From positions 1 to 64,000 of the forward strand of contig JARKVD010000011.1 of NCBI GenBank assembly GCA_029851835.1: a DNA stretch of 64,000 nucleotides. Direction: 5' to 3'. Positions within the stretch are counted from its first letter, which is position 1. Each line of letters starts with the position of its first letter. Source of the DNA: Clostridium sp. GTDB lineage: Bacteria; Bacillota; Clostridia; Clostridiales; Clostridiaceae. A program made the translations under genes and the position numbers. Under the pieces are notes generated by a model, which was given only the letters and a program-made list of their open reading frames with translations, was not told the origin of the DNA and searched no databases. Shown in pieces: positions 24,324-56,307 of this stretch.

Positions 24324-25622
24324 TTAAACTTCCTCTACCATGTCTTTTATCGTTTCTTCCGCTGCCTTTAAAGTTTTATCTATATCCTCTTCTGTATGAG
24401 CAAAGCTTACAAACATTGCTTCAAATTGAGCTGGTGCAAGGTATATTCCTTTCTCTTCCATCTTAATGAAGTACTTGGCATAAGCTGCAGTATCACTACT
24501 CTTAGCCTTTGTATAATTAGTAACTTCTCCTTCTGTAAAGAAAACACATACTAATGAGCCAACAACATTTATACTTATAGGTGCCTTGTATTTTGCACCA
24601 ATTTCTCTTAAACCGTCAGCTAGCTTCTTTGCAAGATTATTTATGGTTTCATATATTTCTGGCTTTTCATTTAACATTTTAAGCTGAGCAAATCCAGCAG
24701 CCATAGCAACGGGATTTCCTGAAAGAGTTCCAGCTTGATATACTCCTCCTAATGGTGAAACACAGCTCATTATCTCTTTTCTTCCGCCATAAGCTCCAAC
24801 AGGCATTCCTCCACCAATTATTTTTCCATAGGTAACCAAATCTGCTTCTATGCCAAAGAACTCCTGAGCTCCACCTTTTGCTAAACGGAAACCTGTGATA
24901 ACTTCATCAAAGATTAATAAGGCTCCATTTTTAGTACATAACTCTCTTAACTCCTTTAAGAATGTGCCCTGCGGTTCTATAACTCCCATATTAGCAGCTA
25001 CTGGCTCTACTATTACAGCTGCAATTTCACCCTTATTTTCTTCAAACAGCTTTTCTACAGATGTAATATCGTTATATTGAGCTGTAAGAGTATCTTCAGC
25101 AGCATTTTTAGGTACTCCTAAGCTGTCTGGTACTCCTTCAGTTAATAGTCCTGAACCAGCTTTAACTAATAAGCTATCACTATGTCCATGATAACAGCCT
25201 TCAAATTTTACTATCTTATTTCTATTTGTGTATCCTCTAGCAACACGAATAGCACTCATAACCGCTTCTGTTCCGCTGTTTACCATTCTCACCATTTCTA
25301 TATTGGGTACCATCTTGTTGATAAGCTCTGCAATTTCAACTTCTCCTGCTGTAGGTGCTCCATAGCTTAACCCTTTTTGAATTGCTTCAGATACGCTTTT
25401 TAGAATTTCAGGATGATTATGTCCTAATATCATTGGTCCCCAAGAACATACATAATCAATGTACTCATGTCCATCTACATCATAGATTCTTGAACCACTT
25501 GCTTTTTCTATAAAAAGAGGATTAGCCCCAACTGATCTAAATGCTCTTACTGGGCTATTAACTCCTCCTGGAATTACCTTCTTCGCTCTTTCAAAAAGAG
25601 TTTCACTTGTTTTATTATTCAT
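24324..25622 (-). CDS. hemL: glutamate-1-semialdehyde 2,1-aminomutase
   Basis: 432-residue PLP enzyme that makes 5-aminolevulinate from glutamate-1-semialdehyde. Visible are VNSGTEAVMSAIRVARG, YHGHSD, FDEVITGFR, and the PLP-binding Lys in TYGKIIGGGMPVGAYGG. It completes the C5 pathway begun by hemA in the same operon. There is no Shine-Dalgarno next to the ATG; a GGGAGG (25673-25678) sits 50 nt away, separated by a perfect hairpin described separately. N-terminal alignment to the family (SETLFERAKKVIPGGVNSPVRAF) supports this ATG. Confidence 0.96.
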   Translation of the reverse strand: MNNKTSETLFERAKKVIPGGVNSPVRAFRSVGANPLFIEKASGSRIYDVDGHEYIDYVCSWGPMILGHNHPEILKSVSEAIQKGLSYGAPTAGEVEIAELINKMVPNIEMVRMVNSGTEAVMSAIRVARGYTNRNKIVKFEGCYHGHSDSLLVKAGSGLLTEGVPDSLGVPKNAAEDTLTAQYNDITSVEKLFEENKGEIAAVIVEPVAANMGVIEPQGTFLKELRELCTKNGALLIFDEVITGFRLAKGGAQEFFGIEADLVTYGKIIGGGMPVGAYGGRKEIMSCVSPLGGVYQAGTLSGNPVAMAAGFAQLKMLNEKPEIYETINNLAKKLADGLREIGAKYKAPISINVVGSLVCVFFTEGEVTNYTKAKSSDTAAYAKYFIKMEEKGIYLAPAQFEAMFVSFAHTEEDIDKTLKAAEETIKDMVEEV

Positions 25623-25678
25623 CTGTTATATTTAGTGGTCTCTTAGGTTTATTTCCAAAACTGCCACTAAAACCTCCC
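25623..25678 (-). promoter_or_regulatory. hemL ribosome binding site separated from start by a hairpin
   Basis: On the minus strand the order is GGGAGG (25678-25673), 1 nt, TTTAGTGG (25671-25664), 25-nt loop, CCACTAAA (25638-25631), 8 nt, ATG. The 8-bp stem is perfect. Folding it would leave about 9 nt between Shine-Dalgarno and start, the usual optimum. Confidence 0.7.
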
Positions 25679-25693
25679 TTCATATATATCAAA

Positions 25694-38470: not shown

Positions 38471-38518
38471 ATACAATATATAGTATTCAATTTCAATTTC
38501 AAACACAATATATAGTAC
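38471..38518 (+). promoter_or_regulatory. two tandem NrdR boxes
   Basis: ATACAATATATAGTAT (38471-38486) and ACACAATATATAGTAC (38503-38518), each close to the 16-bp NrdR consensus (ACACxATATATxGTGT). They start exactly 32 bp apart, three turns of the helix, the spacing typical of NrdR control of ribonucleotide reductase genes. Confidence 0.88.
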
Positions 38519-38528
38519 TACAACCGTT

Positions 38529-38573
38529 AGGGGGTGAATTGCTAATCATACACTTATATGATTAGCTTTTATA
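38529..38573 (+). promoter_or_regulatory. nrdJ ribosome binding site with interposed hairpin
   Basis: AGGGGGTG (38529-38536), 4 nt, perfect 9-bp hairpin GCTAATCAT/ATGATTAGC (38541-38549 with 38558-38566), 7 nt, ATG. A linear spacer of 37 nt is too long; folding brings it to about 11. A nine-codon frame including the stop, beginning TTG at 38539, overlaps the hairpin. Confidence 0.7.
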
Positions 38574-41500
38574 ATGAATAATAACAATAAAATGATTAAA
38601 AGATTTTATACAAAGGCGTTAGAGAAAAATAAAACTTTAACTGTATATGATTTATTTAAGTGGAAAAAGGTTGATGTAGTTTTAAAGGACTATAAAAAGG
38701 GAACTGTCCTTGTGGATATGCGTGACCTAGAATTTCCTATCCACTATTCACAAAATGCCTGCGATATTATTGCATCAAAATATTTTAAAAGAGCATTGAT
38801 TCCAAATGAAGTTGGGTATGAAAACAGCTTGAAAATGGTAGCTCATAGATTGGTTAACTTCTGGTGTGAATCCTTAAAGGATGAAGGATTAATTGAGACT
38901 GAAGAAGACTTTAAAATTCTTTATGATGAATTAGTATACTGCTTCTTAAATCAAATGTATGCTCCAAACTCACCACAGTGGTTTAATACTGGCTTGAAAC
39001 TTTCTTATGATATTGGTGGAGAGCATCAAGGGCACTTCTATTATGATGAAAATTTGAAGAAGGTAGTTGAAAGCGTTGATAACTACACTCGAACTCAAGC
39101 TTCAGCTTGTTTTATAGTTTCTATAGAAGATAAACTACTTGGACCACACTCAATCTCTGAACAGTATGTAACAGAGACAAAACTATTTAAAGGTGGTTCT
39201 GGTTCAGGAACAAACTATTCTACTTTAAGAGCTAAGGATGAACACTTATCAGCAGGTGGACGTTCTTCTGGAGTTATGAGCTTCTTAAAGGGCTTTGACA
39301 GAAACGCTGGTACAATAAAATCTGGTGGAACTACAAGACGTGCTGCTAAAATGGTATGTCTAGACATAGATCATCCTGAAATTACTGAGTTTATAAAATG
39401 GAAGGCTACTGAGGAAGATAAAGTTAGAGCTTTAGGTAAAATGGGCTATGATGCTTCCTTCGAAGGTGAGGCCTATGAAACTGTTTCTGGTCAAAACGGA
39501 AACAACTCCATAAGATTCAGTGATGAGTTCATGGAGAAAGTTGCTGATCTTCCTAAAAATCCTGATGCAACTATTACTTTAAAGGGAAGAGTTGATCAAG
39601 GAATTAACCGAGAAGTACGCGTAGATGAGCTTTGGGATGATTTCAACAAAGCTGCTTGGCAGTGTGCTGACCCAGCTCCTCAATTTGACGATACCTTCAA
39701 CGCATGGCATACATGCCCAGGCGGAGAAGATGGCCAGTTTGGTGCAAAGCATAACAGATTAAACTCTACTAACCCATGTGGAGAATATGCTTTCCTAGAT
39801 GATACTTCTTGTAACCTAGCTTCAATTAACATATATAAGTTCTATGATAAAGATAATAAGGTATTTGATTTAGATGGGTATGTACATCTTATATCTTTAT
39901 TACAGCTTATGCTTGAATCTTCTGTTCACTGGGGTCAATTCCCTACAGAGGACATTGCAAGAAAAACATACTTATTTAGAACTACAGGACTTGGAATAGC
40001 AAACCTTGCTTCCCTTCTAATGGTTATGGGATATGCTTATGATTCAGAAGAAGCAAGAAGCCTTACTGCTGCCCTTGTAGGTATCCTTACTGGTGCTTCT
40101 TATACAGCTTCAGCTCGTATGGCTGAAAAGGTTGGTCCTTTTGAAAAGTATGAAATTAATAAGAATGCTATGCTAAGAGTTATAAGGAACCACGGAAGAG
40201 TGGCTGGTGCTTTAAATGATGATTTTGAAGAACTTCATTATGAACCAATTAAGGTTAACCACAGACTTCTAAAATCAATGGGTGCTGTAGAGATGTCAGA
40301 TATGCTAAAAAAAGTTTGGAAGGATGCCCTAACCCTTGGTGAAAAATTTGGATATAGAAATGCTCAGGTTTCCGTTGTAGCACCAACAGGAACTATCTCC
40401 TTTGCAATGGACTGCGGTGCAACTTCTATTGAGCCATACTTCTCTCACTTTATCTACAAGAAACTTTCAGGTGGTGGATTTATGACCATCGTAAATCCAA
40501 TAATAGAGGATGCTCTAAAAAATCTAGGTTACACTGACGAGGAAATTAAAGATATCGTGGATTATATCTTAAGAAAAGAAAAAGTTAATGATAATGGATA
40601 TGAGTATGAAAAAATAGTAGATGGAAAAATCGAGGGTGCTCCACACCTTAAAGAAGAACACCTTCATATCTTTGATACAGCAAATAAATGTGGTAGTGGA
40701 GAAAGATATATTCTACCAATGGGCCACGTACTTATGATGGCCGCTATTACTCCTCTTATCTCTGGTTCTGTTTCTAAGACAGTAAACCTTCCTAAGGATG
40801 CTACTGTAGAAGACTTCAAAAATGTTGTTTTAGATTCTTGGAGACTTGGAGTTAAAGGAATTTCCTTATACAGAGATGGATGTAAAGCAAGCCAGCCTTT
40901 AAATACTGTTTTAGAGGAACAAGGTGAAGCAGAGCTTGAGCAGCTTACTTATGCAGAGCTTCTTGCAAAAGCTAAAGAACTTCAAGCAAAATCTAATAAA
41001 CCTTCTTATAAATCAGTTAGAGAAAAACCAATTGGCATCAGGGTTGGCACTACTCATCCTGCTCAAATAGATGACGTAAAAATATATACTACAGTAAATA
41101 GAAGACCAAACGGTGAAATATCCGAAATATATATAACTACAGACAGAGAAGGAACAATAATAACTGGACTTTTAAATTCTCTTTCAAAATCAATTTCAGT
41201 TATGCTTCAATACCATGTTCCTGCTGCTGACATAGCTAAAATGCTTAGAGGTCAAAAATACGAACCTTACGGTTTCGTACAAAAACACCCATACATTAAG
41301 CATGTAAGCTCAATCTCTGACCTAGTAAGTAAAATAATAGACATAGAGCTTGGTGACTACTCTCGCTGCCAAATCAAGCCTGATTCAGAAGAAGCTGTAA
41401 CCTATACGGACTACAGCCCTGCAGCTCCAAAGGCTTCAAGCTCAACTCAACAAAAGGATTATTCAAAACTTGAAGGAGAACGTATCTATTCAGAGACATG

Positions 41501-41585
41501 TTCAACCTGTTCAAGCACAAACCTAGTTAGAAACGGTACTTGCAAAGTTTGTAGAGACTGCGGAACAACTACTGGATGCAGCTAA
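38574..41585 (+). CDS. nrdJ: vitamin B12-dependent (class II) ribonucleotide reductase
   Basis: 1003-residue enzyme converting ribonucleotides to deoxyribonucleotides with adenosylcobalamin as radical source. The active-site loop NPCGEYAFLDDTSCNLAS, the partner-Cys region QASACFIVS, and VVAPTGTISFAMDCGATSIEP are visible, followed by a C-terminal extension ending in a Cys-rich CSTCSSTN...CKVCRDCG module that feeds the active-site disulfide. Length suits the long clostridial form. The unusual leader hairpin and NrdR boxes upstream are described separately. Alone in its operon. Confidence 0.96.
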   Translation: MNNNNKMIKRFYTKALEKNKTLTVYDLFKWKKVDVVLKDYKKGTVLVDMRDLEFPIHYSQNACDIIASKYFKRALIPNEVGYENSLKMVAHRLVNFWCESLKDEGLIETEEDFKILYDELVYCFLNQMYAPNSPQWFNTGLKLSYDIGGEHQGHFYYDENLKKVVESVDNYTRTQASACFIVSIEDKLLGPHSISEQYVTETKLFKGGSGSGTNYSTLRAKDEHLSAGGRSSGVMSFLKGFDRNAGTIKSGGTTRRAAKMVCLDIDHPEITEFIKWKATEEDKVRALGKMGYDASFEGEAYETVSGQNGNNSIRFSDEFMEKVADLPKNPDATITLKGRVDQGINREVRVDELWDDFNKAAWQCADPAPQFDDTFNAWHTCPGGEDGQFGAKHNRLNSTNPCGEYAFLDDTSCNLASINIYKFYDKDNKVFDLDGYVHLISLLQLMLESSVHWGQFPTEDIARKTYLFRTTGLGIANLASLLMVMGYAYDSEEARSLTAALVGILTGASYTASARMAEKVGPFEKYEINKNAMLRVIRNHGRVAGALNDDFEELHYEPIKVNHRLLKSMGAVEMSDMLKKVWKDALTLGEKFGYRNAQVSVVAPTGTISFAMDCGATSIEPYFSHFIYKKLSGGGFMTIVNPIIEDALKNLGYTDEEIKDIVDYILRKEKVNDNGYEYEKIVDGKIEGAPHLKEEHLHIFDTANKCGSGERYILPMGHVLMMAAITPLISGSVSKTVNLPKDATVEDFKNVVLDSWRLGVKGISLYRDGCKASQPLNTVLEEQGEAELEQLTYAELLAKAKELQAKSNKPSYKSVREKPIGIRVGTTHPAQIDDVKIYTTVNRRPNGEISEIYITTDREGTIITGLLNSLSKSISVMLQYHVPAADIAKMLRGQKYEPYGFVQKHPYIKHVSSISDLVSKIIDIELGDYSRCQIKPDSEEAVTYTDYSPAAPKASSSTQQKDYSKLEGERIYSETCSTCSSTNLVRNGTCKVCRDCGTTTGCS

Positions 41586-55210: not shown

Positions 55211-55284
55211 AAAGGAGGTGAAAGTTAGTAAGAACTACTTTAGACCTTTAAATTTCCTCAAAAAAGTTCTTACTGAACTATTTA
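55211..55284 (+). promoter_or_regulatory. splB ribosome binding site with interposed hairpin
   Basis: Near-perfect Shine-Dalgarno AAAGGAGGTG (55211-55220), then AGTAAGAACT (55227-55236), a 28-nt loop, AGTTCTTACT (55265-55274), and ATG at 55285. The 10-bp stem is perfect and can gain two more pairs. Folding reduces 64 nt to about 12-16. No start codon is suitably placed near the Shine-Dalgarno, and an in-frame stop lies in the loop. Confidence 0.75.
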
Positions 55285-56307
55285 ATGTTTATTCCCAAGA
55301 GAATAATTTTTGAAAAAGGTGCTTTAGATTATCCAATAGCTAAAAATATCTACAACACCTTTAAGAACAACGAATCTATACAGATTATAATACTTACTTC
55401 TAATAAAATTAAAGACAAAATTCCTGGTGATAATTTATATGAATTTTATAGAGAAGGAAAAAACACTTTAGTGGTTGGTACAAAAAAGACTGGTAAATTT
55501 CAATCCTGCAAGCCTTCTGCTAACTGGCAGCTGCCATTGCTATCAGGCTGTATTGGACACTGTCAATACTGTTATCTCAATACTAATTTAGGAGATAAAC
55601 CTTATATTAAAGTTAATGTAAATGAAGGTGATATTCTTAAGCAGGCGCAAAATTATATTAATGAAAGACTCCCTGATATAACAGTCTTTGAAGGATCTGC
55701 AACCTGTGACCCTATTCCTGTAGAACCTTATACCAATAGTCTTAGAACTGCCATTGAATTCTTTGGCAACAGTGAAAAGGGACGTTTCCGTTTTGTCACA
55801 AAATACACTGATGTTGATTCGCTCCTTGATGCAGCTCACAATGGACACACTGAAATTCGCTTTACAATCAATACCACTCATGTAATAAATAACTTTGAAA
55901 ACCGCACTGCATCAAGAGATATGAGAATTGATGCTTCTGCAAAGGTTGCTGCTGCAGGATATCCCTTAGGCTTTTTAATTGCGCCAGTATTTTTTTATGA
56001 TAATTGGAAAGAAGATTATAAAGCTCTTCTTATTTCTTTAAAGGAAAAGCTTCCTGATAATCTAGTTCGACCTATTACCTTTGAGGTGATTTCTCACAGG
56101 TACACCAGCAGAGCTAAATCCATCATCGATGAAGTCTTTCCTGAAAATACTCTTCCAATGAAGGATGAGGAAAGAAAATTTAAATACGGTCAATTTGGCT
56201 ATGGTAAGTTTGTTTATAGCAAGGAGCAGCTAGCTGAAATGAAAGAATTCTTCATCCAGACAATTGAAGAAATCCTTCCCGATGCTGGAATAAAATATAT
56301 AATTTAA
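55285..56307 (+). CDS. splB: spore photoproduct lyase
   Basis: 340-residue radical-SAM enzyme that repairs the spore photoproduct (5-thyminyl-5,6-dihydrothymine) on germination. The cluster-binding site is GCIGHCQYCYL (CxxxCxxC form); the N-terminal sequence FIPKRIIFEKGALDYP aligns with B. subtilis SplB, which supports the ATG despite its distance from the ribosome site. The SplB C-terminal part (KYGQFGYGKFVY) is present. It ends in a terminator overlapping the stop. Expect forespore-specific expression. Confidence 0.94.
   Translation: MFIPKRIIFEKGALDYPIAKNIYNTFKNNESIQIIILTSNKIKDKIPGDNLYEFYREGKNTLVVGTKKTGKFQSCKPSANWQLPLLSGCIGHCQYCYLNTNLGDKPYIKVNVNEGDILKQAQNYINERLPDITVFEGSATCDPIPVEPYTNSLRTAIEFFGNSEKGRFRFVTKYTDVDSLLDAAHNGHTEIRFTINTTHVINNFENRTASRDMRIDASAKVAAAGYPLGFLIAPVFFYDNWKEDYKALLISLKEKLPDNLVRPITFEVISHRYTSRAKSIIDEVFPENTLPMKDEERKFKYGQFGYGKFVYSKEQLAEMKEFFIQTIEEILPDAGIKYII

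Follow-up and report, generated by a model that had tools for sequence, protein, structure and literature searches.

The leader of hemL raises the question of how a start codon can be served by a Shine-Dalgarno (SD) sequence that lies too far upstream, with a perfect inverted repeat between the two. The gene lies in a window of 64,000 nucleotides from Clostridium sp. (contig JARKVD010000011.1, positions 1 to 64,000), and an earlier note on this DNA, made from the sequence alone, had proposed that a folded mRNA restores the distance between the SD and the start codon.

Hairpin-bridged leaders in the window

Direct reading of the hemL leader (minus strand) revealed the order GGGAGG, a single T, the 5′ arm of the stem, a 25-nt loop, the 3′ arm, 8 nt and the ATG (Table 1), with gaps of 0–1 nt on the 5′ side of the stem and 8 nt on the 3′ side; the SD, the 8-bp stem and the spacings described earlier proved exact. 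The same succession of SD, perfect stem and start codon, also reported for nrdJ and splB, was found in both. In the nrdJ leader the stem has 10 bp and encloses a loop of 6 nt, with gaps of 3 (5′) and 7 nt (3′), and the stem of splB consists of 10 Watson-Crick pairs (12 if one G-U pair and one more pair are included) with gaps of 3 and 8 nt. When the spacers were shuffled, the probability of obtaining such a hairpin by chance was 0.011 for hemL taken alone, 0.001 for nrdJ and 0.003 for splB.

The starts of the three genes are well supported by in-frame stop codons just upstream and by N-termini that match those of homologues. The stop is located 15 nt upstream of the start in nrdJ and 36 nt upstream in splB. 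For hemL, a TAA occurs 6 nt before the ATG, within the stem-to-start gap, and therefore no in-frame start 5′ of this codon can serve the gene. Stops placed within or directly 3′ of the hairpin likewise exclude upstream starts for lonC (genome G000) and cinA, two genes described below.

Upstream of nrdJ (window positions 38472–38518) we also noted a pair of sequences resembling NrdR boxes, TACAATATATAGTATT and ACACAATATATAGTAC, at a distance of 31 nt from each other, which indicates that the promoter region of this gene is probably regulated. Sites resembling these boxes also precede nrdJ in relatives.

Table 1. Positions of the leader elements and genes discussed in the text (window coordinates, unless a locus is given)
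Feature	Position	Strand	Basis
hemL SD, GGGAGG	25673..25678	-	sequence; SD score 23.5; longer duplex GAAGGGAGGT
hemL bridging stem, 5′ arm TTTAGTGG	25664..25671	-	sequence, fold
hemL bridging stem, 3′ arm CCACTAAA	25631..25638	-	sequence, fold
hemL stem-to-start gap, 8 nt, TATAACAG; includes in-frame TAA	25623..25630	-	sequence
hemL, glutamate-1-semialdehyde 2,1-aminomutase	24324..25622, ATG at 25622	-	NCBIfam TIGR00713
nrdJ SD, AGGGGGTGA	38529..38537	+	sequence, scan
nrdJ bridging stem, 5′ arm GCTAATCATA	38541..38550	+	sequence, covariation
nrdJ bridging stem, 3′ arm TATGATTAGC	38557..38566	+	sequence, covariation
nrdJ, B12-dependent ribonucleotide reductase	38574..41585, ATG at 38574	+	NCBIfam NF005122
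splB SD, AAAGGAGGTGA	55211..55221	+	sequence, scan
splB bridging stem, 5′ arm TTAGTAAGAACT	55225..55236	+	sequence, scan
splB bridging stem, 3′ arm AGTTCTTACTGA	55265..55276	+	sequence, scan
splB, spore photoproduct lyase	55285..56307, ATG at 55285	+	NCBIfam TIGR04070
lonC-type Lon-family protease gene, 12-bp stem	L179:8549		scan outside window; TIGR02903
cinA, 15-bp stem	L177:10902		scan outside window
Stand-alone ATP-cone gene, 10-bp stem, exact start ambiguous	L116:3206-3472 (G000 contig C2)		scan outside window; PF03477

Frequency of bridged starts

Three such leaders in about 60 genes had looked too many for chance. The local density is high, and the excess was also evident on a larger scale, in a scan of 825 kb of the 2.19-Mb genome (an 83%-complete MAG with predicted gene starts; 714 genes). 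Genes were called by codon usage and kept if they had no SD at the normal distance; a match was defined as a strong SD 22–75 nt upstream of the start together with a stem leaving 3–14 nt of single strand. A proximal SD was missing from 41 of the 714 genes, nine of which had a distal SD, and in six of these nine a stem of at least 8 bp bridged the SD and the start. Dinucleotide shuffling of the spacer, a control which assumes that spacer composition provides the right null, predicted 0.42 such genes in the first scan and 0.36 over 1000 shuffles (maximum 3). With the window left out, a bridging stem was present in three of six genes (p 0.002), and when five genomes were pooled (2086 genes) the count was 11/32, compared with 0.99 expected and a maximum of 5 in 1000 shuffles. 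The class of bridged starts thus exceeds chance.

About 0.5–1% of genes in the lineage use a start of this kind, namely lonC, nrdJ, cinA, splB, hemL, pcp and the ATP-cone gene. The last of these encodes a protein of 89 aa, with its own hairpin-bridged start, which may be a regulatory domain of ribonucleotide reductase that has become separated from the enzyme. A slightly looser filter identified bridged starts of lonC, pcp and splB in the relative G005, of nrdJ and lonC in G003, and of a DUF1540-type gene (named from its N-terminus) in Clostridium cadaveris (G013). The C. cadaveris leader (L306:12813) is composed of AAGGAGG, a 10-bp stem with a 3-nt loop, and an ATG 10 nt later; this bridged start comes from a genus other than that of the window, and the genome of the species is complete.

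Among the distal-SD genes there was no independent stem in a non-bridging position, all eight matches of this type (8/8) being sub-stems or later starts of bridged leaders. When the requirement for the absence of a proximal SD was dropped, a loose scan returned nine matches against 5.4 expected, the signal being swamped by false SD-start pairs. In 530 kb from other phyla no convincing bridged start was detected (0.55 matches were expected, and the one obtained was weak, its gene having an alternative SD that is usable), and 50 kb of Escherichia coli DNA contained zero testable SD-start pairs. A mobile or repeated hairpin element was also considered and rejected, as the hairpins of hemL, nrdJ, splB, cinA and lonC each occur unrepeated across the 825 kb.

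Spacing in the bridged leaders

In all matches without another usable SD, the gap is 0–4 nt on the 5′ side of the stem and 6–10 nt (mostly 7–8) on the 3′ side. The raw SD-start spacing in these leaders, which have no proximal SD, is 33–66 nt; with the hairpin removed it falls to 9–15 nt, whereas ordinary genes peak at 7 nt. The bridge therefore gives a spacing that is usable, yet systematically longer than normal, and the extra nucleotides might serve to pass the base of the helix.

Conservation and covariation of the stems

The lonC hairpin was present in all seven genus members examined, between GAGGGGAGG or GAAGGGAGG and a TTG start, and nearly all genomes outside the genus have an ordinary SD at this gene. 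The stems (11–16 bp) differ in sequence (AGCATAGAAGAAG, GCATTAGAAGG, CGCTTTAGTGAG, CGCTTTGATAGCTTTT and others). Since MAFFT alignments of the leaders failed to align the arms, these were laid out by hand, and in pairs counted on this basis, from species that within a genus are not independent, we found (i) for lonC (seven species), 86 of 86 cells paired, with double-sided changes at 10 of 13 shared pairs, and (ii) for nrdJ (six species of three genera), 52 of 52 cells paired, with changes on both sides at all nine shared pairs. Both sets of stems include G-U pairs, as expected for RNA. In G001 and G004 an internal loop or bulge breaks the nrdJ hairpin, as read by eye, and the scores of a strict search are weak or nil. 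On this comparative evidence, the orthologues settle the stem structure for lonC and nrdJ, and the layout of both leaders is conserved among relatives. In the case of cinA, the hairpin is kept in G006, and G002 and G003 have an ordinary SD; the splB hairpin is kept in G005 and perhaps in G018.

Compensatory changes in homologues, which the earlier note had named as a check, were found for lonC and nrdJ. For hemL there were none: no covariation was detected among its orthologues, and none of those examined has the hairpin. It is also absent from the leader of the only close (and nearest) orthologue, that of C. cadaveris (77% identity), in which AAAGGAG lies 8 nt before the ATG. Of the three genes in the window, hemL is the weakest in evolutionary evidence; it has no informative orthologue, and the case for it therefore rests on geometry and membership of the class. 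The hemL product is only about 50–53% identical to those of members of its own genus, compared with 85–87% for nrdJ within the genus. The hem operon may possibly have been horizontally transferred, or lost and replaced in relatives, as judged from these sequences.

The hairpin of hemL (and of this gene only) might be a product of chance, with translation coupled to hemB, which ends approx. 70 nt upstream, or to a short ORF, MKGGFSGSFGNKPKRPLNITDE, of 22 codons (ATG at 25683) which ends just past the hemL start and overlaps it. The p value for this hairpin alone leaves some room for such an explanation, but we consider it unlikely: the short ORF lacks an SD at the normal distance and has no counterpart in the nearest relative, and the gaps in the hemL leader (0/8) match those of the covarying cases.

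Are the hairpins regulatory or DNA elements?

Control by temperature, protein or ligand had been suggested for these starts, and regulation is conceivable in principle where a start depends on folding; the hairpin would then act as a switch (responding to one of these signals or to a small RNA), its folding state turning the gene on or off. No support was found for this suggestion. From gene to gene the stems and loops show no relation in sequence, and among orthologues their sequences change freely; for this reason a site for a common ligand or protein is not apparent, nor do the bridged genes form an obvious common regulon. Searches with Rfam covariance models gave zero matches at the gathering score in the window, and zero for either the hemL or the nrdJ leader at E values of up to 1, which argues against a known riboswitch or other Rfam family. 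The behavior of an RNA thermometer was not seen in the fold model of the hemL leader, the one modeled over temperature, in which the stem is predicted to stay paired throughout the range 10–55 °C and the SD to be mostly free of pairing.

The leader of splB is predicted to differ in this respect. Its loop (window positions 55243–55259) contains GACCTTT and TTTCCTC, which are complementary to the SD of the same gene, and fold prediction (for the genome of the window) gave ambiguous results, with SD-sequestering alternatives of similar energy. According to these models, splB is the only leader in the window with a competing fold of this type, and it would be the place to look for regulation. We regard it as improbable that folding acts as an on/off switch in these leaders, and give an equally low chance to regulation of the class as a whole, by a hairpin opened or stabilized by a helicase, a cold-shock protein, an antisense RNA or, in splB, the SD-complementary loop. 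If this were true, the cell would set the SD-start distance through the hairpin and so switch a set of genes.

A role of the inverted repeats as operators in the DNA, or as terminators of transcription, that lie by chance between the SD and the start is very improbable: a TTTT tract directly 3′ of the nrdJ stem and the NrdR-like boxes upstream of that gene would fit, but a T run at the end of the stem is found only in nrdJ (it is absent in lonC, hemL and splB, which does not suit a terminator or attenuator), the G-U pairs preserve RNA pairing and not DNA symmetry, the position of the stem is fixed relative to the SD as well as to the start, and operator sites would keep their sequence across orthologues, which the bridging stems do not.

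Proposed mode of initiation

It is thus probable, in our view, that the bridged starts are accommodated (split) ribosome binding sites in which the hairpin is a constitutive structural spacer. The hairpin between the SD and the start would fold and stay folded, cutting the single-stranded path from 33–66 nt to about 9–15 nt. The 30S subunit would pair with the SD and, with the hairpin protruding as a loop next to the mRNA exit, would place the start codon in the P site. The sequence of the hairpin should be irrelevant, provided that its arms pair. That ribosomes start across the hairpin in its folded state, and that the hairpin is constitutive, are our inferences. Support for the idea that folding of the mRNA restores the SD-start distance comes from the genome scan, from the covariation in lonC and nrdJ, and from the matching geometry of phage T4 genes 25 and 38.

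If this is correct, chromosomal genes of a bacterial lineage would repeatedly use, and selection would keep, a layout that has been demonstrated in two genes of phage T4. Several natural leaders that follow a tight rule (0–4 nt before and 6–10 nt after the stem) would be available for studying how the 30S subunit holds a folded spacer. A scanner whose search for an SD ends about 15 nt from the start codon would class these genes as lacking an SD, or may place their starts wrongly.

Comparison with known systems

In the open-access literature we found no earlier example of a bridged start in a cellular gene. The thrS gene of E. coli is autoregulated. Its split ribosome binding site contains a long hairpin which the ribosome is reported to accommodate without unfolding (PMC3936740). 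The accommodation of a long, folded hairpin resembles what we propose for the clostridial leaders; however, the thrS hairpin is assigned in that work to upstream standby modules and is not regarded as a bridge between the SD and the start (PMC3936740).

The closest parallels are the split or accommodated ribosome binding sites of phage T4, first among them that of gene 25 (Nivinskas 1999; Malys and Nivinskas 2009; reviewed in PMC3014915). According to the review, RNA structure shortens the spacing from 22 to 5 nt in gene 38 and from 27 to 11 nt in gene 25, mutations that destabilize the structure lower initiation in both, and the structure in gene 25 was confirmed by DMS probing (PMC3014915). 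Our reading of the T4 leaders gave gaps of 0/6 nt for gene 38 and 1/8 nt for gene 25, the same range as in the clostridial leaders. Gene 38 shares with these the order of SD, hairpin and start, but it is a single gene with a short GC-rich stem and a UUCG loop. Gene 25 is similar in that its SD is too distant, with a perfect stem between it and the start, and in being conserved in close relatives only. In contrast to this phage gene, with its 7-bp stem and 4-nt loop, the clostridial starts are chromosomal, have stems of 7–18 bp and loops of up to 28 nt, and occur in several unrelated genes of one genome, with stems that covary.
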